Shown: one piece after another, positions 18,103 to 49,720 of the stretch
Position numbering within the stretch: the stretch's first letter is position 1
How the letters are laid out: the number at the start of each line of letters is the position of its first letter
Assembly: GCF_001647285.1 (NCBI RefSeq)
Contig: NZ_LRML01000005.1
Coordinates: forward strand, 62,001-126,000
Length of the DNA: 64,000 nt
Origin: Rufibacter roseus
GTDB taxonomy: Bacteria; Bacteroidota; Bacteroidia; Cytophagales; Hymenobacteraceae
Reading direction: 5' to 3'
Notes under the pieces: generated by a model
What the model was told of the DNA's origin: nothing
What the model saw: only the letters and a program-made list of their open reading frames with translations
The model's database searches: none
Translations under genes and position numbers: made by a program

Positions 18103-18148
18103 AGACTCAGAACAAAATCTTCAGTCTTGTGTCCTGTGTCTTAAATCT
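18103..18148. repeat. heptamer array overlapping the acyl-CoA dehydrogenase stop
   Basis: On the minus strand five consecutive heptamers close to AGACNNA run from 18148 down to 18114; one more unit in the opposite sense lies at 18103-18109. The array shares two bases with the stop codon of the acyl-CoA dehydrogenase gene. It uses the same unit as the arrays at 19964-20395 and 33606-33687. Confidence 0.65.
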
Positions 18149-19943
18149 AGTAAACAAACTCGTTCTCCTTAATCATTTCGGCCGCAATACGACGGCGGGC
18201 TTCTTTGGTGTTGTATGGTTCTAGTTTAGTAAAACGCTTGAGGCCAATGAGCAACAGCTTCTGCTCGTCACCTGGTTCACTCATGGCCGCAATGGCTTCC
18301 TTACCAGCTTTATTAATGCGGTCAGCAGCATCATTGATCACCACACGTACAATGTCTAACTGACGACCATGCGCCTCTTCGCCGTTGCGGCTCACCAGCT
18401 TCTCCACACGCAGTAATGTAGACTCAGCTATGTAGGTCTGAATGGCCATATCCGCGATGTACATGAGCACTTCCTGCTCTTTATCCAAGGTCATCATGAA
18501 CTTCTGCACGGCTGTACCGGCGGTTAGCAACACGGCTTTTTTAAATTTCTCAACGGCTTTCTTTTCAGCGGCAAAAAGGCTGGTATCTTCGTCCCCGAAA
18601 TCAGGAATGGCCATTAGTTCATTCTGCACATTGGCGGCCGGGCCCATCAAGTCAAGCTCACCTTTCAGGGCTTTTTTGAGCACCATGTCTACAATGAGCA
18701 TGCGGTTGATCTCGTTAGTTCCCTCAAATATGCGGTTGATGCGGGCATCGCGGTACGCACGATCCATAGGGTAATCAGCTGAGAAACCGTAGCCTCCGTA
18801 GATCTGCACACCTTCGTCTACCACGTAATCCAGCACCTCCGAGCCATCTACTTTAAGAATGGCGGCTTCCACGGCAAACTCACGGGCAGCTTCCAGTACA
18901 GCCTCATTGTAGCTTTTGCCAGCGGCTAACAGCTCCTGCTCTTTCAGGTGAATGTCATGCCCACAGCGGTACAGAGCAGATTCTACCGCAAAAATTCTGA
19001 TAGCCTGCTCCGCCAACTTATGACGGATGGCCCCGAACTTTGAAATTGGAATCTTGAACTGAATACGCTCATTGGCATACTTTACAGAAAGATCTGCTAC
19101 TTGCTTACAGGCTCCCAAACAGGCAGCTGCCAGCTTGATACGCCCGATATTTAAGATGTTGAAGGCAATTAAGTGTCCTTTCCCAATCTCGCCCAGCACG
19201 TTTTCTTTCGGTACTTTGCAGTCGGTCAGGAACACTTGGCGGGTAGAGGATCCTTTGATTCCCATCTTGTGCTCTTCCGGACCCAAGCTCAGACCTTCAT
19301 AGCCTTTCTCTACAATGAAGCCTGTGAATTTATCTCCGTCTACCTGCGCAAAAACAATGAACACATCGGCGAAGCCAGCGTTCGTAATCCACATTTTTTG
19401 ACCATTCAAAATGTAGTTTTCGCCAGCCACATCTAAAACGGCTTTAGTCTTGGCAGCCAAAGCATCTGACCCAGAACCCGGCTCTGTTAAGCAATAAGAA
19501 GCCGCCCACTCGCCAGACGCCAACTTAGGAATGTACTTGGCTTTCTGCTCTTCGGTACCGAAGTACAGGATGGGCAGTGTACCAATACCGGTATGCGCGG
19601 CAAACGCCACGGGGAATGAATGCCCTGAACCTACCGACTCTGTCACGAGCAAAGATGAGTTAAAATCCATGCTGAGTCCGCCGTACTCCTCCGGAATGGC
19701 TACGCCGAATAAGCCCAGCTCTCCGGCTTTTTTCATAAGCCCCTCCATCAAGCCTTCCTCATGGTTGTCCAGTCGCTCTACTAGCGGGTACACCTCGGTC
19801 TGCACAAACTGCTGGGCCGTCTCGGCCATCATGCGCTGCTCCTCAGAGAAATCCTCCGGAATGAAAATATTTGCGGCGTTGGTTTCTTTGATGATGAACT
19901 CACCGCCTTTGAGCGTTCTAGAAGTTGATTCTGTATTTGCCAT
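18147..19943 (-). CDS. acyl-CoA dehydrogenase (long ~600-residue type)
   Basis: A 598-residue flavoenzyme for the first step of fatty-acid beta-oxidation. The dehydrogenase core has the substrate segment SYCLTEPGSGSDA and the late block RIFEGTNEINR, whose glutamate is the expected catalytic base. The C-terminal ~170-residue helical extension (from about residue 430) resembles that of VLCAD-type enzymes. It is the last gene of the FadB-like/thiolase/dehydrogenase cluster. It is now separated from the thiolase gene by an inserted four-helix-bundle pseudogene with heptamer flanks. Confidence 0.92.
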   Translation of the reverse strand: MANTESTSRTLKGGEFIIKETNAANIFIPEDFSEEQRMMAETAQQFVQTEVYPLVERLDNHEEGLMEGLMKKAGELGLFGVAIPEEYGGLSMDFNSSLLVTESVGSGHSFPVAFAAHTGIGTLPILYFGTEEQKAKYIPKLASGEWAASYCLTEPGSGSDALAAKTKAVLDVAGENYILNGQKMWITNAGFADVFIVFAQVDGDKFTGFIVEKGYEGLSLGPEEHKMGIKGSSTRQVFLTDCKVPKENVLGEIGKGHLIAFNILNIGRIKLAAACLGACKQVADLSVKYANERIQFKIPISKFGAIRHKLAEQAIRIFAVESALYRCGHDIHLKEQELLAAGKSYNEAVLEAAREFAVEAAILKVDGSEVLDYVVDEGVQIYGGYGFSADYPMDRAYRDARINRIFEGTNEINRMLIVDMVLKKALKGELDLMGPAANVQNELMAIPDFGDEDTSLFAAEKKAVEKFKKAVLLTAGTAVQKFMMTLDKEQEVLMYIADMAIQTYIAESTLLRVEKLVSRNGEEAHGRQLDIVRVVINDAADRINKAGKEAIAAMSEPGDEQKLLLIGLKRFTKLEPYNTKEARRRIAAEMIKENEFVY

Positions 19944-19963: not shown

Positions 19964-19998
19964 AGACATAAGACACAAGACGTAAGACTCAAGACTTT
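19964..19998. repeat. heptamer array, left flank of four-helix-bundle unit A
   Basis: Five head-to-tail heptamers of the form AGACNNA (the last is AGACTTT). They are inverted relative to the right flank. The TGA stop of the restored gene falls inside the fourth unit. The array begins 20 bases upstream of the acyl-CoA dehydrogenase start. Confidence 0.85.
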
Positions 19999-20359
19999 TC
20001 TTTTGTGTTCTTGAGAAATCTGTCTTTGAAACCATTAATCATGCGCTGTACCACGCCAACTTGCTGTAGCAATAGCTGCAACCTTGCCTCTTCTACAAAG
20101 CCAAAGCTTTGTAGAAGAGTAATTGCGTTTCTAACTCAAAAGCAGAGCCTCTCGCAATGTTCAAAAATTGAATAAACTCTTTGTCACTGCCTCTTCCAGC
20201 TCCTTCGGCTATGTTAGAGGGAACAGAAACGGCTGACCTATTAATTTGTGACGTAAGACCATATTTTTCATTTGCAGGAAACGAAGCCGAAAGCTCGAAA
20301 ACCTTCTTAGCCAACGTCATTGCCTCTTGCCAAATCTTTAACTCTTTAAAGTTGTGCAT
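19989..20359 (-). pseudogene. S23-type four-helix-bundle protein (23S rRNA IVP family), frameshifted; unit A
   Basis: The intact frame encodes 88 residues (stop at 20093) of a classic S23/IVP protein: FKELKIWQEAMTLAKKVFEL, then LTSQINRSAVSVPSNIAEGA, then FLNIARGSAFELETQLL. The remaining helix, VEEARLQLLLQQVGVVQRMI, continues in another frame to a TGA at 19989-19991. A one-base indel therefore truncates a protein of about 123 residues. The break lies at a perfect hairpin (20088-20119). The family forms pentameric four-helix bundles related to the Avd protein of diversity-generating retroelements; its function here is unknown. The start codon sits one base from the right heptamer array. Confidence 0.8.
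20088..20119. repeat. perfect inverted repeat at the frameshift of unit A
   Basis: Two 14-base arms (CTCTTCTACAAAGC and its complement) separated by four bases, located where the reading frame of the four-helix-bundle gene breaks. Confidence 0.8.
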
Positions 20360-20360
20360 G

Positions 20361-20395
20361 AGAGTCTTGAATCTTATGTCTTACGTCTTGTGTCT
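20361..20395. repeat. heptamer array, right flank of four-helix-bundle unit A
   Basis: Five heptamers that read AGACNNA-like on the minus strand (TNNGTCT on the plus strand), inverted relative to 19964-19998. The array ends eight bases before the thiolase stop codon. Confidence 0.85.
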
Positions 20396-21690: not shown

Positions 21691-21725
21691 ACATTAATCA
21701 TTACTCACTATTCATTAATCATTAA
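21691..21725. repeat. heptamer array next to the FadB-like stop codon
   Basis: Five heptamers, consensus TTAATGA on the minus strand, ending three bases before the stop codon of the FadB-like gene. Unit and orientation resemble the right flank of the unit at 28.4 kb. No four-helix-bundle gene lies between this and 21601-21639. Confidence 0.7.
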
Positions 21726-21728
21726 CAA

Positions 21729-24131
21729 CTAGTTCCGCAGTGGTTTACCCGTGGTCAGGATGCTCTTGATGCGCTCCAGCGTTTTGCGCTCACCAGTCAG
21801 GCTCAGGAACGCTTCTCGCTCTAAGTCCAGCAGGTACTGCTCCGAGACTTCTGATGGCATTGACAAATCGCCACCGCACATCACGTAGGCCAATTTCTCT
21901 GAGATCTTGCGGTCGTGCTCGGAGATAAAACCGGCAGCGTGCATGGCGTGCGTACCCGTCAGGAACATGCCCAGACCACCACGACCTTGCACCTTGATGT
22001 TGGTTTTAGGTGTGGGTTTGGTATAACCGGCATCGGCTAACAAAACAGCTTCGGCTTTGGCCTCGGCAATGAGGCGGTTGTTGTTGAGGGTAATGCCATC
22101 ACCGCCGCGAAGGAAGCCTAAATCAAAAGCTTCTGCCGCTGAGGTAGACACTTTGGCCATTCCAATGGTCATAAACGCGTTGCGCAGGGCGTTAAACTCA
22201 GTGTCGCCCTCTTCGTAGGCCGCCGAGGTACGCAGGGTCATTTCCTTTGTACCGCCGCCACCTGGTATCAAGCCAACTCCAAACTCTACCAACCCGATAT
22301 AAGATTCTGCTGCGGCCTGTACTCTATCTGCGTGCAGGCAAAGCTCGCAGCCTCCGCCCAGGGTCAGACCATGTGGAGCAGCTACTACAGGAACAGCAGA
22401 GTAACGCATGCGCATCATGGTGTTCTGGAACTGCTTGATCATGAGGTTCAGCTCGTCATACTCCTGGTCAATGGCGTACATGAACACCAGCGCCAAGTTC
22501 GCTCCAGCAGAGAAATTAGTGGCTTCGTTACCGACTACTATTCCTCTGAAGTTTTGCTCCGCCAGGTCAATGCCCTTATTCAAGCCCTGTATGATTTCGC
22601 TGCCCATGGAGTTCATCTTGGTGTGGAACTCCACGTTCAGGATGCCATCGCCTAAATCTAGAATGGTGCAACCGGCGTTTTTCCAAACCACGTTGGTGCC
22701 GCGTAGCACATCCAGCAACACAAAATTCTCGGTGCCCGGAATCTGCTTGTACTCTTTGCTTTCTATATCATAGTACTGGCGCTGATTGTTCTGGCTGCGG
22801 TAGAAGCTCTCGTGCCCCGCTTCCAGCATCTCGTACACCCATCGGGCAGGCTTGTACCCAGCGGCTTCCATGGCACTCACAGTCTCACGCACGCCCACGG
22901 CATCCCAAGTCTCAAAGGGTCCCAGCTCCCATCCGAAGCCGGCGCGCATGGCATCATCAATGCGGTAGAGCTCGTCTGAGATTTCCGGAATTCGGTTAGT
23001 CACGTATTGGAACAAGCCAAAAGAAGTCTCTCTAAAGAAGTCACCGGCTTTGTCCTGCACCTGGCTGAACGCCTTGAGGCGCTTGCGGAGGTCTTCAATA
23101 GGTTTGAGCATTTCCATGCTCTGGAACTTGACCTTTTTCTTAGGCCCGTATTCCATAGTCTTCAGGTCCAGCGTCAGAATCTCGGTGGCACCCTGATCGT
23201 TCTTGGTTTTCTTGTAGAAGCCCTGCTTTGTTTTGTCACCCAGCCAGTTTTTCTCCAGCATCTGCTGAATGTAACCGGGTAGCTGGAACAGATCACGGGC
23301 CTCGTCTTTCTCGCCAGATTGGTATAGACCTTGGGCAACTTTGGCCAGCGTGTCAAGACCTACCACATCAGAGGTCCTAAACGTAGCTGATTTTGGTCTG
23401 CCTACTACTGGGCCAGTGAGGCGGTCTACCTCGTCTACATTCAGATCCAGCTTCTCCATGACGTGCAGCACCTGCATGATGCCATAAATACCCACACGGT
23501 TGGCAATAAAGGCCGGCGTGTCTTTGGCCAGAACCGTGGTTTTGCCTAGGAACAGATCACCGTAGTTTAGCAGAAACTGAGTGATTTCCGGGTCAGTGTG
23601 TGGCGTGGGGATAATCTCCAGCAACTTAAGGTAGCGCGGCGGGTTGAAGAAGTGCGTGCCGCAGAAATGCTTTTTGAAATCTTCGGAACGGCCCTCGGCC
23701 ATTAAATGGATTGGAATACCCGAGGTATTGGAGGTAATGAGCGTGCCCGGCTTGCAGAACTGCTCCACCTTCTCAAAGATGGACTGCTTTATTTTCAGGT
23801 TCTCCACCACCACTTCAATGGTCCAGTCGCAGTCGGCAATGCCTTTGAGGTCATCATCGAAGTTACCGGTCTTGATGAGGCTGGCCTTGGTTTTCTCGTA
23901 CAGGGGCGCCGGATTAGAAGTAATGGCTGTTTGGAGGGCGGTGTTCACAATGCGGTTGCGCACTTGCTTGCTTTCCATGGTGAGGCCTTTGGCTTCCTCC
24001 TCGGGCAGTAGCTCCCTCGGCACCATATCCAGCAGCAGCACCTGCACGCCAATGTTCGCGAAGTGGCAGGCAATGCGCGAGCCCATTACGCCCGAGCCAA
24101 GCACCGCCACTTTCTTGATTATTCTCTTCAT
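21729..24131 (-). CDS. 3-hydroxyacyl-CoA dehydrogenase/enoyl-CoA hydratase fusion (FadB/FadN-like)
   Basis: An 800-residue bifunctional beta-oxidation enzyme. The NAD-binding Rossmann domain comes first (VAVLGSGVMGSRIACHFA at residues 8-25), followed by the helical dehydrogenase domains to about 470. The enoyl-CoA hydratase/isomerase (crotonase) domain is C-terminal, with GIVVGNEATNFSAGANL and HGLTLGGGCELCLHAD forming the oxyanion hole. This order is the reverse of E. coli FadB and like Bacillus FadN. It leads the operon with thiolase and acyl-CoA dehydrogenase, and a MarR regulator lies just upstream. Confidence 0.92.
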   Translation of the reverse strand: MKRIIKKVAVLGSGVMGSRIACHFANIGVQVLLLDMVPRELLPEEEAKGLTMESKQVRNRIVNTALQTAITSNPAPLYEKTKASLIKTGNFDDDLKGIADCDWTIEVVVENLKIKQSIFEKVEQFCKPGTLITSNTSGIPIHLMAEGRSEDFKKHFCGTHFFNPPRYLKLLEIIPTPHTDPEITQFLLNYGDLFLGKTTVLAKDTPAFIANRVGIYGIMQVLHVMEKLDLNVDEVDRLTGPVVGRPKSATFRTSDVVGLDTLAKVAQGLYQSGEKDEARDLFQLPGYIQQMLEKNWLGDKTKQGFYKKTKNDQGATEILTLDLKTMEYGPKKKVKFQSMEMLKPIEDLRKRLKAFSQVQDKAGDFFRETSFGLFQYVTNRIPEISDELYRIDDAMRAGFGWELGPFETWDAVGVRETVSAMEAAGYKPARWVYEMLEAGHESFYRSQNNQRQYYDIESKEYKQIPGTENFVLLDVLRGTNVVWKNAGCTILDLGDGILNVEFHTKMNSMGSEIIQGLNKGIDLAEQNFRGIVVGNEATNFSAGANLALVFMYAIDQEYDELNLMIKQFQNTMMRMRYSAVPVVAAPHGLTLGGGCELCLHADRVQAAAESYIGLVEFGVGLIPGGGGTKEMTLRTSAAYEEGDTEFNALRNAFMTIGMAKVSTSAAEAFDLGFLRGGDGITLNNNRLIAEAKAEAVLLADAGYTKPTPKTNIKVQGRGGLGMFLTGTHAMHAAGFISEHDRKISEKLAYVMCGGDLSMPSEVSEQYLLDLEREAFLSLTGERKTLERIKSILTTGKPLRN

Positions 24132-26797: not shown

Positions 26798-27946
26798 ATG
26801 AATCTTTCCATCTTCTTTGAGCCCCTACCAGAAGCACTCTTCGGAGGCGATGACAACCCCAAGTCTGTGGGCGGATATATAGCTCCTTTTCTCCATTCCT
26901 TCCCCGACTGGCGCTCTGCAGAGGTGGTACTGATAGGCCTTCCAGAATATCGTGGCACAGCAGGCGCTTCAGAAATTTCCTTTCAAGGGCCCAACCTCAT
27001 CAGGAAAGAACTCTACCAGCTTATGAAAGGCACCGGCCCCTGGCTCGTAATGGACTTAGGCAACTTACTGCCTGGCATTCATTTAGAAGACACGTATCTG
27101 CGCCTGAAAGAGGTAGTGGAGATGCTGGTAGACGAAGGTAAATTCCCTATTCTGCTGGGCGGCTCCCATGACCTCACTTACGGACAATTCTTAGGTTATG
27201 AGCATCTAAACAAAACAGTTAGCCTGGCTATAGTGGACAGTCAGCTAGACATGCAGGAAAACAAAGATGCCGCTCCAGACCAGAGCCACCTGCACCGCCT
27301 GCTGCTACACGAGCCCAATTATTTGTTTAGCTTCAGCCAATTAGGTTACCAAGCCTACCTCACCCCTACTACTACATTGGCCGCGCTTGAAAAGCTGCAC
27401 TTTGAGCTGTTTCGCATTGGGCAGGTAAGGCAGCAGCTTAAGGAGATGGAGCCGGTAATAAGACAGGCCGACTTGCTTAGTTTTGATGTCTCTGCTATCA
27501 AACACCAAGATGCTCCTGGCCAGCAGCACGCTAACCCTTTTGGCCTTACCGGCGAGGAAGCCTGCCAGATTTGCTGGTACGCAGGCCAAAGCGACCAACT
27601 CAGCTCATTTGGTTTGTACGGCTATCGCCCTGAATTTGACCATAGAGCCCTTACGGCTACCACTCTGGCTACCATGGTTTGGTACACCATTGAAGGTTTT
27701 TACCAAAGACTGCGCAATTTGGATTTCCAGAGCAATAACTTTCTGCGGTTCTCAGTGGGCTTTCATGACAACCCCAACAAGATGATCTTTTATAAAAACC
27801 GACAAACTGACAAGTGGTGGATGCAAGTAGATGACTTGTCTGGTCAGCGCCCGCCCATGGTGGTACCTTGCAGCTATCAAGACTACCTTACCGCCGTAGA
27901 CGGGGAAGTGCCCAACCGCTGGATTCTGACACAAGCGCGGATTTAA
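26798..27946 (+). CDS. arginase/formimidoylglutamase-fold protein with altered metal site
   Basis: A 382-residue ureohydrolase-fold protein; ATG 26798 (MNLSIFFEPLPEALF) is preferred over the TTG at 26783. Three metal-ligand regions can be aligned. LLGGSHDLTYG keeps a histidine. The usual DAHxD is replaced by VDSQLD, losing its histidine. The usual SFDVDxxDP reads SFDVSAIKHQDAP, losing one aspartate. Catalysis by the standard two-manganese mechanism is therefore doubtful, although related Bacteroidota proteins commonly carry the name formimidoylglutamase. Its stop codon lies inside the left array of unit B. Confidence 0.75.
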   Translation: MNLSIFFEPLPEALFGGDDNPKSVGGYIAPFLHSFPDWRSAEVVLIGLPEYRGTAGASEISFQGPNLIRKELYQLMKGTGPWLVMDLGNLLPGIHLEDTYLRLKEVVEMLVDEGKFPILLGGSHDLTYGQFLGYEHLNKTVSLAIVDSQLDMQENKDAAPDQSHLHRLLLHEPNYLFSFSQLGYQAYLTPTTTLAALEKLHFELFRIGQVRQQLKEMEPVIRQADLLSFDVSAIKHQDAPGQQHANPFGLTGEEACQICWYAGQSDQLSSFGLYGYRPEFDHRALTATTLATMVWYTIEGFYQRLRNLDFQSNNFLRFSVGFHDNPNKMIFYKNRQTDKWWMQVDDLSGQRPPMVVPCSYQDYLTAVDGEVPNRWILTQARI

Positions 27947-27974
27947 TGAGTGAAGGAGTGAGTTTGTGAATGAG
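27943..27974. repeat. octamer array, left flank of four-helix-bundle unit B
   Basis: Four head-to-tail octamers near TGAATGAG (TTAATGAG, TGAAGGAG, TGAGTTTG, TGAATGAG). The first unit contains the TAA stop of the upstream arginase-fold gene. It is inverted relative to the array at 28428-28467. Confidence 0.8.
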
Positions 27975-28043: not shown

Positions 28044-28421
28044 ATGGAGCAGCTGAAGGAGCCAACAAAGGAGGAATTTATTACGCGGTTTAGACAACGG
28101 ACAAAGATGCTCGCGTTACAGGTGATTCGCTTTAGCCAAGAATTACCTAGAACTGAGGAAGCAATCATTATGAAAAGGCAACTCCTCCGGTCAGCTACGT
28201 CGGTGGCAGCTAATTACAGAGCCGCTTGCCGCGCGCGATCGGCAGCTGAATTTCATTCAAAACTCAGTATTTGCGTAGAGGAGGCAGATGAAACCCTTTT
28301 TTGGCTTGAGTTGCTGACCGAGTCAGAAACTGTTACTTCGTCCTCTACTGCATCACTCATACAAGCAGCATCAGAAATTTTGCTCATTCTATCAAAAGCC
28401 AGAAAAAACACTATCAAATAA
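28044..28421 (+). CDS. four-helix-bundle protein (TIGR02436/Avd-like); unit B
   Basis: A 125-residue all-helical protein. It has the TIGR02436 pattern: FRQRTKMLALQVIRFSQELP for helix 1, MKRQLLRSATSVAANYRAAC into helix 2, EFHSKLSICVEEADETLFWL for helix 3, and a terminal Leu/Ile-rich helix. It belongs to the same superfamily as unit A (S23) but to the other common subgroup. Function is unknown; relatives include the Avd accessory protein of retroelements. There is no reverse transcriptase nearby. The gene is enclosed by inverted octamer arrays. Confidence 0.85.
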   Translation: MEQLKEPTKEEFITRFRQRTKMLALQVIRFSQELPRTEEAIIMKRQLLRSATSVAANYRAACRARSAAEFHSKLSICVEEADETLFWLELLTESETVTSSSTASLIQAASEILLILSKARKNTIK

Positions 28422-28427
28422 TTTCTT

Positions 28428-28467
28428 TTTATTCACTCATTCACACACTCACTCATTCAATCATTAG
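28428..28467. repeat. octamer array, right flank of four-helix-bundle unit B
   Basis: Five octamers whose minus-strand consensus is TGAATGAG, matching the left flank in inverted orientation. The array begins six bases after the four-helix-bundle stop and ends three bases before the ATG of the cytochrome b5-like gene. Confidence 0.85.
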
Positions 28468-32189: not shown

Positions 32190-33503
32190 TTACTTCTTTC
32201 TGAACACTAAGTTAATAGGCACACCTTCAAATCCAAAATGTTCGCGCATTCGGTTCTCTAAAAACCGAACATAAGAGTCTTTTATGTACTGCGGAAGATT
32301 ACAGAAAAACGCGAATGTAGGCGTGTGCGTGGGTAATTGCGTGACATACTTTATTTTCACGAATTTACCTTTGATAGCGGGTGGCGGATACCGTTCAATC
32401 TCCTTCAGCATCACCTCGTTCAGTTTAGAGGTAGAGACTTTCATGGTCTTGTTCTCATATACCTGAATAGCTGTTTCAATTGCCTTGTGCACCCGCTGTT
32501 TGTTCAGCACCGATATGAAAACAATTGGCGGATAGGCAATAGGGGCAATACGCTCATAGATGGCATTCTCCATATCACGCATGGTGTTGGTTTCTTTCTC
32601 CACCAAGTCCCACTTGTTTACCAGTATCACCAAACCCTTCCGGTTCTTATCAGCTAAGCCAATGATGTTCATGTCTTGGGCCTCTATGCCACGGGTAGCG
32701 TCCAGCATTACAATCACCACATCACTTTCCTCCAGCGCTCTAATAGAACGAAGCACCGAATAGAACTCAATGTCTTCATGCACTTTGCTTTTCTTCCGGA
32801 GCCCGGCGGTGTCAACAATGATGAACTCCTGCCCAAACGCGTTGTAGTGCGAGTGAATGGAGTCACGGGTGGTGCCGGAAATGTCTGTTACTATGTTGCG
32901 CTCTTCGCCCAATAGCAGGTTCACAAAAGAAGATTTCCCAACGTTAGGTCTACCTACCACGGCAATGCGCGGTATGCCAGCCTCAGGGTTTTCAATGCCT
33001 TCCTCAGGGAAATGCTTTACTACCTCATCTAACAACTCACCGGTACCAGAACCGTTTTGGCTGGAGACAGGGAAAATTTCGCCTTCAAAGCCCAACGCAT
33101 AAAACTCACCAGCCAGGTGGCCGCGGGCATGGGTATCTGCTTTGTTGGCAACAATGTAAATAGGTTTGTCAGAGCGGCGCAGCACATCGGCAAACTCTTG
33201 GTCTAAACCAGTAATGCCCATTTCTACGTCTACCATAAACAGAATCACATCTGCTTCTTTGATAGCCAATTCTACTTGTTTCCGGATTTCCTCTTCAAAG
33301 ATATCATCAGAGCCGCGCACGTAGCCACCAGTGTCAATAACGGTGAAGTACTTGCCAATCCACTCGCCGTGTCCGTAGTGGCGGTCGCGGGTAACGCCGC
33401 TTTCGTTGTCCATGATAGCCTTGCGCTGGCCCACCAGACGGTTAAATAAAGTGGACTTGCCCACGTTTGGGCGTCCTACAATGGCGATGGTATTATTTGC
33501 CAT
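32190..33503 (-). CDS. der: ribosome biogenesis GTPase Der (EngA)
   Basis: A 437-residue protein with two tandem GTPase domains, the unique mark of Der. The first P-loop, GRPNVGKS, is at residues 10-17 and the second at 184-191. The guanine motifs NKAD (first) and NKWD (second) are present, and a KH-like C-terminal domain follows. Der acts in 50S subunit maturation. A palindrome lies immediately upstream, and era lies further upstream on the same strand. Confidence 0.96.
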
Positions 33504-33605: not shown

Positions 33606-33687
33606 AGACACAAGATGTAAGACCTAAGATTCAAGACTTCTCTTAGTATGATTTTGTCTTGTGTCTTATGTCTTGAGTCTTGTGTCT
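33606..33687. repeat. paired inverted heptamer arrays with no gene between them
   Basis: Five AGACNNA-type heptamers (33606-33640), a 12-base spacer, then five heptamers in inverted orientation (33653-33687). The unit is the same as in unit A at 20 kb. The right array ends at the base before the era stop codon. It looks like an empty version of unit A lacking the four-helix-bundle gene. Confidence 0.85.
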
Positions 33688-34578
33688 CTATAAACTATTA
33701 TATCCGAACCTATCCAGCAGGCGTTTGTCGGTGCGCCAGTTTTCGTTTACGCGCACGTAGAGGTCCAGAAACACTTTTTTCTGAAAGAACTCTTCCATGT
33801 CTAAGCGCGCTTGAGTGCCTACTTTTTTAAGGGCGGCTCCTTTGTCGCCGATGACAATGCCTTTCTGGCTTTTGCGCTCTACGCTGATCTCAGCGCGCAT
33901 TCTAATGATGGTTTCGTCTTCCTTAAATTCCTCAATCACTACTTCGCAGCTGTAAGGAATTTCTTTTTTATAGTTCAGGAAGATTTTCTCGCGTATCATC
34001 TCGGCCGCAAAGAAACGCTCGGGCTTGTCGGTTAGTTCATCTTTGGGATAATAAGCTGGGTGCTCCGGCATCAGGTCCAGAATTTTCTGGAATACACCGG
34101 GTATGCCTTGGTTGTGCAGCGCCGAGATGGGCAGATATTCCTGCGCCGGAAGTTGCTCTTTCCAATAGTCAATTTTGGCCTCTACTTCTTCCTGGGTGGC
34201 CTGGTCAATTTTATTGATGAGCAGCAGAATGGGAGATTTGGCTTTGCGCAAGCGCTCCACCACTTCGCTCTCATCGTGCTTCTCGTAAATATCAGTGACA
34301 AAGAGAATGACATCGGCATCTTCCAGCGAGGCATGCACAAAACGCATCATAGACTCATGCAGCTCGTACTGGGGCTGTATAATGCCGGGCGTATCTGAGT
34401 AAACAACCTGAAAATCGTCGCCGTTCAGAATGCCCATGATGCGGTGGCGGGTGGTTTGGGCTTTGGAGGTAATAATGGAGAGTTTCTCGCCCACCATCAC
34501 GTTCATCAGGGTGCTCTTGCCAACGTTTGGCTTCCCGATGATGCTTACAAACCCTGCTTTATGCGGCTTCTCTGCCAT
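33688..34578 (-). CDS. era: GTPase Era
   Basis: A 296-residue GTPase for 16S rRNA maturation. The P-loop GKPNVGKS is at residues 15-22, followed by the switch segment, DTPGI, and NKID. The C-terminal KH domain carries the RNA-binding loop VIGDKGAALKKVGTQARLDME. A TACCTTTG -7 box lies 27 bases before its start, so it has its own promoter. The paired heptamer arrays touch its stop codon. Confidence 0.96.
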   Translation of the reverse strand: MAEKPHKAGFVSIIGKPNVGKSTLMNVMVGEKLSIITSKAQTTRHRIMGILNGDDFQVVYSDTPGIIQPQYELHESMMRFVHASLEDADVILFVTDIYEKHDESEVVERLRKAKSPILLLINKIDQATQEEVEAKIDYWKEQLPAQEYLPISALHNQGIPGVFQKILDLMPEHPAYYPKDELTDKPERFFAAEMIREKIFLNYKKEIPYSCEVVIEEFKEDETIIRMRAEISVERKSQKGIVIGDKGAALKKVGTQARLDMEEFFQKKVFLDLYVRVNENWRTDKRLLDRFGYNSL

Positions 34579-34723: not shown

Positions 34724-34795
34724 AATAAACGAGAATCATTTTGTGCAGTGACTTTTATCATATCACCGCCCAATGACCAATGCCTTTCAATTCCG

Positions 34796-34803
34796 TATCT
34801 TTG
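34796..34803 (+). promoter_or_regulatory. -7 box for hemH
   Basis: TATCTTTG, matching TAnnTTTG, 13 bases before ATG 34816. It argues against the earlier ATG at 34780, which would lie upstream of the transcript start. Confidence 0.6.
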
Positions 34804-34815
34804 CAATTCAATTAC

Positions 34816-35850
34816 ATGCTTATGACAAGTGGAGCCACTGGCAAAACCGGAGTATTATTAGTGAACCTGGGCACCCCAGATTCACCAAGCGTACCGCACG
34901 TACGCAAATATTTGAGAGAGTTTCTATTAGACAAGCGGGTGTTGGATATTCCTGCGCCTAACCGATACATGTTGGTGAACGGGATTATTGCCCCGTTCCG
35001 CGCCCCAAAGTCTGCCAAAGTATACAGGGAACTTTGGACTGAGCGCGGCTCTCCTCTGCTGTATCACGGTCTGGATTTGCAGAAACTGGTACAGGAAAAA
35101 CTGGGCAAGAGTTACCACGTGGCCTTTGGTATGCGCTACCAGAGCCCCAGCATAGAAAGTGCCTTGCAAGAACTACAAGACAAGGTGGTTGACCGCATAA
35201 TTGTGTTGCCTCTGTTTCCGCAGTATGCCTCGGCCAGTACGGGTTCAGTGCAAGAGAAGGTGATGGAACTGGTGAGCAAATGGGAAGTAATTCCGGACTT
35301 AAAGTTCATCAGCACGTTCTGCAACCACCCCGGCTTTATTGGCACCTTTGCCGAAATTGCCCGCCAGCACATGGCCAAGCGCGATTATGATCATGTTGTG
35401 TTCAGCTACCACGGCCTGCCAGAGCGACAAATTTTGAAGGCCAGCACCAAGGGCTATTGCCAATTGGGCGCTTGCTGCAATACATACCACAGCCGCAACC
35501 GTTACTGTTACCGTGCCCAATGCTTTGAGACATCACGTCAATTGGCCAAAGCGCTGAACATTCCGGAAGATAAATATACCGTTTCGTTTCAATCGCGCTT
35601 GGGCAAAGACCCTTGGCTGAAACCTTACACTGATTTTATTTTGAAAGATTTGGCCGCCGCCGGCGTGAAGAGTGTTCTAGCCTTTAGCCCCGCCTTTGTG
35701 GCCGACTGCCTTGAAACCACTATTGAGGTGGGTCAGGAATTCAAAGAGGAATTTGAAGCCGCCGGAGGAGAACATTGGCAACTGGTGGAAAGCTTGAACA
35801 CGCACCCTATGTGGGTAGAAGCCGTGACGCAGATGGTGCAGGAAGCTTAA
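34816..35850 (+). CDS. hemH: ferrochelatase HemH
   Basis: A 344-residue enzyme that inserts iron into protoporphyrin IX, the last step of protoheme synthesis. It shows VLLVNLGTPDSPSVPHVRKY at the N-terminus, the catalytic-histidine motif FSYHGLPERQ, and FVADCLETTIEVG with the metal-site glutamate. A cysteine cluster around KGYCQLGACC and CYRAQC is typical of the Bacteroidota branch. I choose ATG 34816 (or 34822) over 34780 because a promoter -7 box at 34796-34803 would make the longer start impossible. A half-array of heptamers follows the stop. Confidence 0.93.
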   Translation: MLMTSGATGKTGVLLVNLGTPDSPSVPHVRKYLREFLLDKRVLDIPAPNRYMLVNGIIAPFRAPKSAKVYRELWTERGSPLLYHGLDLQKLVQEKLGKSYHVAFGMRYQSPSIESALQELQDKVVDRIIVLPLFPQYASASTGSVQEKVMELVSKWEVIPDLKFISTFCNHPGFIGTFAEIARQHMAKRDYDHVVFSYHGLPERQILKASTKGYCQLGACCNTYHSRNRYCYRAQCFETSRQLAKALNIPEDKYTVSFQSRLGKDPWLKPYTDFILKDLAAAGVKSVLAFSPAFVADCLETTIEVGQEFKEEFEAAGGEHWQLVESLNTHPMWVEAVTQMVQEA

Positions 35851-35855
35851 CTATT

Positions 35856-35885
35856 AGACACAAGACGTAAGATTTAAGACACAAG
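35856..35885. repeat. half-array of heptamers after hemH
   Basis: Four AGACNNA-type heptamers plus AG, starting five bases after the hemH stop. No inverted partner is present; a large terminator stem follows instead. Confidence 0.75.
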
Positions 35886-47612: not shown

Positions 47613-47647
47613 AATTAGAAATTAAAAATTAGAAATTATGAATTTGA
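47613..47647. repeat. heptamer array, left flank of four-helix-bundle unit C
   Basis: Five head-to-tail heptamers with consensus AATTAGA (variants AATTAAA, AATTATG, AATTTGA). It is inverted relative to the right flank. It contains the TAA stop of the four-helix-bundle gene at 47636-47638 and ends in its last codons. Confidence 0.88.
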
Positions 47648-48001
47648 TTTCATGGTGATGAGAATTTTGCTGATGATTTTCCTTATCTCTAAGCAATCCT
47701 CATGAATGGAATCAAATGCATTTTCAGGAATATACTGGCTATCTTTTAGCAAGCGCAGCCAATATGAAGTTTCCCTAGCCTCTTTCGCGGCAATGTTAAG
47801 TTTATGAACGAAATCAGCTTTAGAACTTGCAGCAATTGCTTCTTCAACATTTGCACCAATGGAAGTACCGCTCCTAAGAAGTTGCTTCGCTAGTACAAAT
47901 TCTTTCTGCTCCTGAGTCAGGAACTTGTAGAGCTTAATAACCCTCAACGCAAAAGCATAGCTTTTATCAATGATGACATTTTCTCTTTTCCCCTCCTCCA
48001 C
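47636..48001 (-). CDS. four-helix-bundle protein (TIGR02436/Avd-like); unit C
   Basis: A 121-residue all-helical protein of the TIGR02436 group: KSYAFALRVIKLYKFLT, then LAKQLLRSGTSIGANVEEAI, then DFVHKLNIAAKEARETSYWL and a final Ile/Leu-rich helix. The start is GTG at 47999-48001, with an in-frame stop a few codons upstream inside the array, so no ATG start is possible. It is clearly homologous to unit B but far from identical. It lies inside the sucB-lpdA gap, enclosed by inverted AATTAGA arrays. Function is unknown. Confidence 0.87.
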   Translation of the reverse strand: MEEGKRENVIIDKSYAFALRVIKLYKFLTQEQKEFVLAKQLLRSGTSIGANVEEAIAASSKADFVHKLNIAAKEARETSYWLRLLKDSQYIPENAFDSIHEDCLEIRKIISKILITMKSNS

Positions 48002-48033
48002 AATTTCTAATTTCTAATTTCTAATTCATAATT
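48002..48033. repeat. heptamer array, right flank of four-helix-bundle unit C
   Basis: On the minus strand: AATTATG, three exact AATTAGA units, then AATT, ending at the base before the GTG start of the four-helix-bundle gene. The outer end is six bases from the sucB stop codon. Confidence 0.88.
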
Positions 48034-49635: not shown

Positions 49636-49666
49636 AATTTTCTTTTCGCTTAAGATGGCTATTGAA

Positions 49667-49710
49667 GTCTGTTTTAGGCCTGCTTTTCAAAAAGCAAGCC
49701 TAAAACAGAC
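49667..49710. repeat. interspersed palindrome copy 19
   Basis: GTCTGTTTTAGGCCTGCTTTT and its near-exact complement, with only one or two central bases unpaired. It starts ten bases past the sucA stop, within the sucA-sucB operon. Confidence 0.85.
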
Positions 49711-49720
49711 GATTTCTCAT

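Follow-up and report, generated by a model that had tools for sequence, protein, structure and literature searches.

The window analysed here is the whole 64,000-nucleotide stretch of Rufibacter roseus DNA, in which the era and der genes lie on the minus strand and are separated by a pair of short tandem arrays at positions 33606-33687 (Table 1). The pair opens immediately 3' of the era stop codon and comprises two inverted arrays of AGACNNA-type heptamers, with the units AGACACA, AGATGTA, AGACCTA, AGATTCA and AGACTTC on the plus strand and AGACACA, AGACTCA, AGACATA, AGACACA and AGACAAA on the minus strand. When five whole units are counted in each arm, 12 bases separate the arms; when the arms are taken as 32 nt, from AGAC to AGAC, the gap is 18 nt. 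The arms are 81% complementary to each other, no ORF was found inside the pair, and no Rfam match above the gathering score was obtained in the window. The sequence-only reading had described two inverted five-heptamer AGACNNA arrays, 12 bases apart, geneless and abutting the era stop codon, and this layout was borne out by the sequence. Our automatic pair detector missed the pair at its default threshold because the left arm is degenerate, and a motif chain and a relaxed version of the detector both find it. Inverted pairs of this kind were absent from 933 kb of 4-mer block shuffles, whereas 580 kb of congener DNA contained 16; the pair is neither a chance product nor unique.

Table 1. Positions of arrays, S23 genes and neighbouring genes in the window.
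Feature	Position	Strand	Basis or remark
AGACNNA array, single, 4 units	18121..18148	-	at stop of gene 18147-19943; partner not found; motif chain
AGACNNA-class array, downstream arm of 20-kb S23 unit	19964..19998	+	
S23 (TIGR02436) gene, AGACNNA class	20063..20335	-	in-frame TAG
AGACNNA-class array, upstream arm of 20-kb S23 unit	20361..20395	-	
Octamer array TGANTGAN, upstream arm of second S23 unit	27945..27972	+	by eye
S23 gene, octamer class	28044..28421	+	
Octamer array, downstream arm of second S23 unit	28431..28465	-	
der (context)	32190..33503	-	downstream of the pair
Left array, five AGACNNA-type heptamers	33606..33640	+	sequence, complementarity, motif chain
Spacer, 12 nt, geneless	33641..33652	.	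sequence, motif chain
Right array, five AGACNNA-type heptamers read on minus strand	33653..33687	-	first base beyond era stop codon
era (context)	33688..34578	-	stop codon abuts the pair; orthologues in 16/16 congeners
AGACNNA array, single, 4 units	35856..35883	+	after stop of gene 34780-35850; partner not found; motif chain
AATTNNA array, downstream arm of third S23 unit	47613..47644	+	
S23 gene, AATTNNA class	47636..48001	-	
AATTNNA array, upstream arm of third S23 unit	48002..48033	-	

A genome-wide search with AGACNNAAGACNNAAGACNNA (three AGACNNA units, up to two mismatches) returned 81 + 105 matches, against 17 + 21 for the reversed control pattern. Motif chaining over the window and nine 20-kb pieces fetched round AGACNNA matches gave 17 facing pairs, of which 15 are gene-less, one surrounds an S23 gene and one surrounds a different ORF of 156 aa. 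The gene-less pairs have 12-206 nt inside, several of them enclosing an apparent ordinary terminator, and a stop codon lies -2 to 10 nt from an arm in 13 of the 15 examined. The window also holds single arrays for which a partner was not found, namely the two AGACNNA arrays of Table 1 and a period-7 array (CATTAAT) at 21692-21725, just past the stop codon of gene 21729-24131.

To our knowledge, S23p proteins have two solved structures and no known function. Six TIGR02436 (S23/four-helix-bundle) genes are present in this genome, five of them with inverted arrays whose units are AATTNNA, AGACNNA, ACTCANN, ACAGTNA and the octamer TGANTGAN, respectively; weak octamer repeats were read by eye at the sixth. 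The gene of the AGACNNA class, judging from its in-frame TAG, is probably dead. Its break coincides with a near-perfect inverted repeat, CTCTTCTACAAAGC / GCTTTGTAGAAGAG, which is absent from congeners and looks as if it had been made by template switching.

The association of arrays with S23 genes was measured in three sets of loci, with detector thresholds set by us. The first set held 103 Bacteroidota loci (6 from this genome, 27 from congeners and 70 from the phylum), one of which was dropped. Arrays of period 7, 8 or 14 lay within 200 nt of the gene on at least one side in 86 of the 102 usable loci, which include mutual orthologues, on both sides in 44 and on neither side in 16, while windows taken farther out had them in 3 of 63 cases. 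The arrays near the genes numbered 70 at period 7, 34 at period 8 and 35 at period 14, with at most 4 at any other period, and control windows of twice the total length gave 10, 1 and 5, respectively. The second set consisted of 18 plasmid loci picked for breadth from the 65 plasmid matches listed; among 17 of them, from six phyla, arrays were found on both sides in 16 and on one side in 1, and the eighteenth, from Bernardetia, has arrays on both sides. For the third set, 80 named loci were collected by searching with part of 2gsc, a Xanthomonas structure. They came from Proteobacteria, Nitrospirota, Planctomycetota, Cloacimonadota, candidate phyla, an ANME-1 archaeon and other groups, and two or four were dropped for short flanks. 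Arrays were present on at least one side in 73 of 78 (controls, 9/68) and on both sides in 49 (controls, 2/68). The proposal that the arrays, rather than the gene, are the constant part, and that they are tied to S23, was supported by all three sets.

S23 units fit closely between genes. The median distance from the stop codon of the preceding gene to the upstream array is 3.5 nt; in 45 of 62 cases it is at most 10 nt, and some arrays overlap the codon. The downstream arrays end a median of 8.5 nt ahead of the next start codon (n=40). The units are found inside gene clusters, i.e., cas10/Cmr3, cas2/cas1, cas6/cas4, hsdS/hsdR and accB/accC. On cyanobacterial plasmids, S23 units recur between CRISPR-cas genes (loci L274, L275, L279, L282 and L287). 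The S23 protein evolves under a dN/dS of 0.061 in four Xanthomonas and of 0.046 in the ACTCA class of the home genus, and its gene stands at accB-accC in 9 of 9 loci, from Xanthomonas to Dokdonella. Given this purifying selection and constant place, S23 is not merely hopping.

The two arms of a locus share their period and, once the downstream arm is inverted, their unit. The period was the same in both arms at 46 of 48 two-armed loci of the first set and 49 of 51 of the third. Unit similarity between arms was 0.923 in the first set with the downstream arm inverted, as compared with 0.638 when it was not inverted and 0.637 between unrelated loci; the corresponding values for the third set were 0.882, 0.565 and 0.642. 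The core shared by different Bacteroidota loci is loose, N-Y-N-A-G-W-N (3.33 bits versus a permuted maximum of 2.42), and that of the third set is a purine-rich unit (2.84 versus 2.17), with four Xanthomonas near-copies left out of this profile and of the unit counts. Pairs of S23 proteins with more than 60% identity had the same period in 102 of 102 cases, and pairs with less than 40% identity in 50 to 60%; unit sequence drifts faster than period among these proteins. Over a phylogeny of 87 S23 proteins, the labels 7 and 8 required 8 changes, compared with 22.7 when shuffled (0 of 500 shuffles as low). Such tracking of the S23 lineage by the period is expected if the distance from subunit to subunit sets the step. 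Because both 7- and 8-nt steps are in use, the protein is unlikely to read the repeats from a single face of the DNA helix.

Period-7 arms of Bacteroidota (n=96) most often have five units (43 arms, with four units in 22 and six in 10). The structure entries 2rld and 2gsc each contain five chains, and the Xanthomonas S23 protein is described as a homopentamer (PMC4990558). The match between unit number and pentamer may be meaningful, but the mode in the third set is four units (39 of 101 arms, with five in 27), so that this match is no more than suggestive.

Arrays lie directly after the era stop codon in all 15-16 congeners, so that the comparison of der-era junctions among relatives, also proposed from the sequence, showed arrays throughout, in five unit classes. 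Facing heptamer arms were recognised by reading in 14 of 16 genomes, the exceptions being G002 and G007, which combine a period-8 left arm with a right arm of about 18 nt; with the relaxed detector, 10 of the 16 genomes gave a facing pair and two gave octamer left arms. The classes are AGACNNA in 3 genomes, GTAKCAN in 5, YTAGANN in 4, TTGTYAG in 2 and an octamer in 2. Placed on an 11-gene species tree, they required 8 changes versus 9.7 when shuffled (10% as low), and thus class is only weakly inherited. Since the junction is occupied throughout the genus by different classes, the place is old and the unit has been replaced in both arms. We rejected a switch of unit class across a whole genome because one genome may hold several classes at different sites, as in G008, which has AGACNNA at its thiolase-junction S23 unit and YTAGANN at era-der.

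S23 units likewise change their unit class at an unchanged place. Between the thiolase and acyl-CoA dehydrogenase genes, S23 arrays of class AGACNNA (G000, G003, G006 and G008), GTAKCAN (G005) or YTAGANN (G010) were found, while four congeners have 15 bases there and others a GIY-YIG element. The junction of genes 48040 and 49721 holds an S23 unit in two congeners and a hairpin spacer of about 85 nt in 13, and the two with the S23 unit show no remnant of this spacer. The spacer, at 49636-49720 in the window and at the same junction in the 13 congeners, is a genus-wide intergenic hairpin of the type CGTTTTTGGCCTGTTTTTCAGAAAACAGGCCAAAAACG, changing in sequence but remaining paired. At the congener junctions 19943/20404 and 21582/21729 (e.g. 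L127, L107, L121 and L131), a small ORF recognised by eye as GIY-YIG lies between inverted copies of TTTGTCATCCTGAAAGGATCT, and gene-less copies of inverted TTTGTCATCCTGAAAGGATCT occur at the 47607/48040 junction in G001, G008, G010 and G014; this element is a second kind with both protein-bearing and gene-less copies.

If the arrays are S23 targets, genomes without S23 might lack them, and this check gave a divided answer. It held in the Xanthomonas arboricola family, where GGGAATC, the unit that flanks S23 at accB-accC in X. arboricola, reached the array cut-off of 10 matches in 40 of the 54 S23-bearing genomes, as compared with 9 of the 65 lacking S23 (Fisher 1.6e-11; median counts, 93 and 0; kinship uncorrected); three cut-offs were tried and all agree. 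Among twelve GGGAATC array loci, some representing the same site, six had facing arrays separated by 81-116 nt and one had them 169 nt apart. Among 148 genomes of the phylum, AGACNNA arrays (at least 4 matches) were present in 15 of the 114 that have S23 and in none of the 34 that lack it, and the phylum tally for a cut-off of at least 8 stood at 26 of 114 versus 0 of 34, both cut-offs being post hoc and the counts made by hand with kinship uncorrected. CAGAANN, the reversed AGACNNA control, is itself a frequent heptamer class, with up to 176 matches per genome, and was frequent only in genomes with S23 (G016, G021, G031, G139 and others). Against the link, ten S23-rich genomes outside the home genus had only 1 gene-less pair in 353 kb, with 0 in 364 kb of ten S23-less genomes. 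Nor does the presence of arrays follow that of S23 within the home genus: G009 gave 39 GTAKCAN matches but none to TIGR02436, and G012 has 60 AGACNNA matches and a single S23 gene of a different class. We read such arrays as targets that have outlived their reader, although these results limit the claim. Taken together, the tie between arrays and S23, the many gene-less pairs and the association at the family level make it likely that S23 acts in trans, as had been supposed from the sequence.

The closest precedent is the intervening sequence (IVS) of the Coxiella burnetii 23S rRNA, in which an inverted stem encloses an S23p gene. The gene is preceded by two to three GACAGAT heptamers and a degenerate one, their number depending on the strain, and RNase III cleaves the paired ends of the IVS (PMC4990558). 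The likeness to the units described here consists in the S23 gene within inverted ends and the heptamers beside it. However, the IVS is located in rRNA and its heptamers are noted on one side only, whereas the present pair is located between era and der; the sections of that paper on the IVS describe no gene-less copies and propose no general link to repeats. The 20-kb unit encodes S23p/TIGR02436, as an IVS does. The era-der pair has the stem-forming inverted ends but no ORF, and is therefore at most a gene-less relative of an IVS-type S23 element.

Heptamer repeats are over-represented in bacteria, and their role remains to be elucidated (PMC4692102). X. campestris has 186 GGGAATC arrays, 70 convergent pairs among them, near the upstream ORF, and Xanthomonas heptamer pairs mostly lie between the same genes in two species while differing in sequence (PMC4692102). 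The gene-less pairs of R. roseus are likewise convergent intergenic heptamer arrays near an upstream ORF, and we found that GGGAATC flanks S23 at accB-accC; in contrast, the Xanthomonas repeats were read as quadruplexes, and neither 'S23' nor 'four helix' occurs in the text of that paper. TAACTGA repeats are known from Beggiatoaceae, Cyanobacteria and some Bacteroidetes, the Beggiatoaceae heptamer arrays being near start and stop codons (PMC4679880). They differ from the present pairs in being mostly direct and ahead of start codons, and S23 is not named in that paper (PMC4679880).

Three systems of other kinds offer partial parallels. In REP/BIME systems with RAYT transposases, numerous inverted copies that lack a gene lie in intergenic DNA, and a gene on the chromosome has ends that match them, but tandem heptamers are absent and RAYT is catalytic; we know of no catalytic role for S23. 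TRAP (trp RNA-binding attenuation protein) is a ring whose subunits each read one (G/U)AG, with a constant step between them, and might be a model for how an S23 ring works, although it has 11 subunits, a 5-nt step and a fold unrelated to S23. Avd, an S23-like protein, takes part in rewriting the target repeats of diversity-generating retroelements.

The sequence-only reading had the two arrays pairing in RNA into a long imperfect hairpin, and the selected feature could be this stem in the transcript, acting in RNase III cutting as in rRNA IVSs or in protection or attenuation of mRNA, with S23 not reading the repeats at all. The fold is strong (-32.1 kcal/mol, z -6.5), IVS stems are described as RNase III substrates (PMC4990558), the units are placed between stop and start codons, and the era-der position is conserved in the genus. 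However, the variable positions are not kept paired: their identity was 0.776 at era-der versus 0.788 with units permuted, 0.861 versus 0.855 in the gene-less pairs of this genome and 0.814 versus 0.805 in period-7 S23 units. Pairing, moreover, needs neither a 7- or 8-nt period nor a tie between period and lineage. A stem kept by pairing was thus rejected, the RNA hairpin is probably a by-product because its variable positions are not kept complementary, and we consider a hairpin element unlikely. The pair had also been likened to a MITE whose parent is the S23 unit. In a true MITE, the arrays would be terminal inverted repeats moved by a separate transposase, or by S23 in partnership, and S23 would be a passenger or helper. 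Facing arrays do occur with and without S23, S23 units with ends of the same unit class as gene-less pairs exist, occurrence at orthologous junctions is sporadic, and Xanthomonas genomes have hundreds of arrays each. The relation to the S23 unit stood insofar as class is shared, but copying did not: the gene-less pairs have the degenerate unit alone in common, with spacers that look unrelated by eye and no common unit order, and when arms were compared between sites of this genome, their likeness did not exceed that of arms with permuted units (0.849 versus 0.842). Simple MITE copying was rejected for this reason. At full and empty congener junctions we saw neither a clean insertion nor a target duplication, the spacers being replaced; S23 is constant at accB-accC, and pairs can enclose an ordinary terminator. 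We judge a true MITE to be rather improbable.

Polymerase slippage has been tentatively named for the heptamer excess, in a statement quoted in PMC4692102, and some arrays are perfect repeats of at least 10 units, as neutral slippage in intergenic DNA with an incidental link to S23 would produce. Adjacent units were identical in 5 of 85 cases, however, which is below expectation (P 5e-4) and led us to reject recent slippage; inversion, period and the S23 association would also be left unexplained, and neutral slippage is strongly disfavoured. G-quadruplex elements, as proposed for the GGGAATC and GGGGATT repeats, have in their favour that such units form quadruplexes in vitro (PMC4692102), but the same arrangement is built from AGACNNA, AATTNNA, GTAKCAN and other units without G-runs, and AGACNNA has no run of three or more Gs. 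Quadruplexes were rejected on this diversity of units and have hardly any claim left. With no excess of complementarity, no likeness between arms of different sites and few identical neighbours, pairing, recent copying and recent slippage are poor explanations, and the arms fit independent strips of sites for one reader.

We propose, with a probability of roughly 0.62, that a pentamer of the four-helix-bundle protein S23 (TIGR02436) docks in trans on the two gene-less arrays of 33606-33687. A short core would recur four to five times in each array, every 7 or 8 nt, so that each subunit of the ring would meet about one core, and the nucleic acid wrapped round the ring would most likely be single-stranded RNA or DNA. 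Two facing arrays would delimit a unit fitting into the gap from one gene's stop codon to the start of the following gene. Some units hold an S23 gene and would be elements of the rRNA-IVS kind; most of those in this genome hold a terminator or nothing and would be served by S23 in trans. By analogy with the rRNA IVS, the gap from stop to start may be a place where an RNase III-type cut costs little. A broader generalisation is possible but doubtful: S23 proteins might form rings that read repeat arrays, each subunit taking one repeat and the lineage setting the step, with the arrays making up much of the bacterial heptamer excess and both arms rewritten in place, perhaps with a need for S23 resembling that for Avd.

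Heptamers beside S23p in Coxiella (PMC4990558) and facing heptamer pairs in Xanthomonas, described without naming S23 (PMC4692102), were already known. This analysis adds the joining of these systems, the common unit of the inverted arms, the link between period and protein and the occurrence across phyla, and we recognised no paper in the open-access literature that joins S23 with heptamer repeats beyond the few in Coxiella. If the arrays are S23 targets, the Coxiella IVS, the Xanthomonas GGGAATC repeats and perhaps the TAACTGA repeats of Beggiatoaceae and the cyanobacterial heptamers would be one phenomenon, and both the function of S23p and the heptamer excess would become testable with purified protein and an oligonucleotide.
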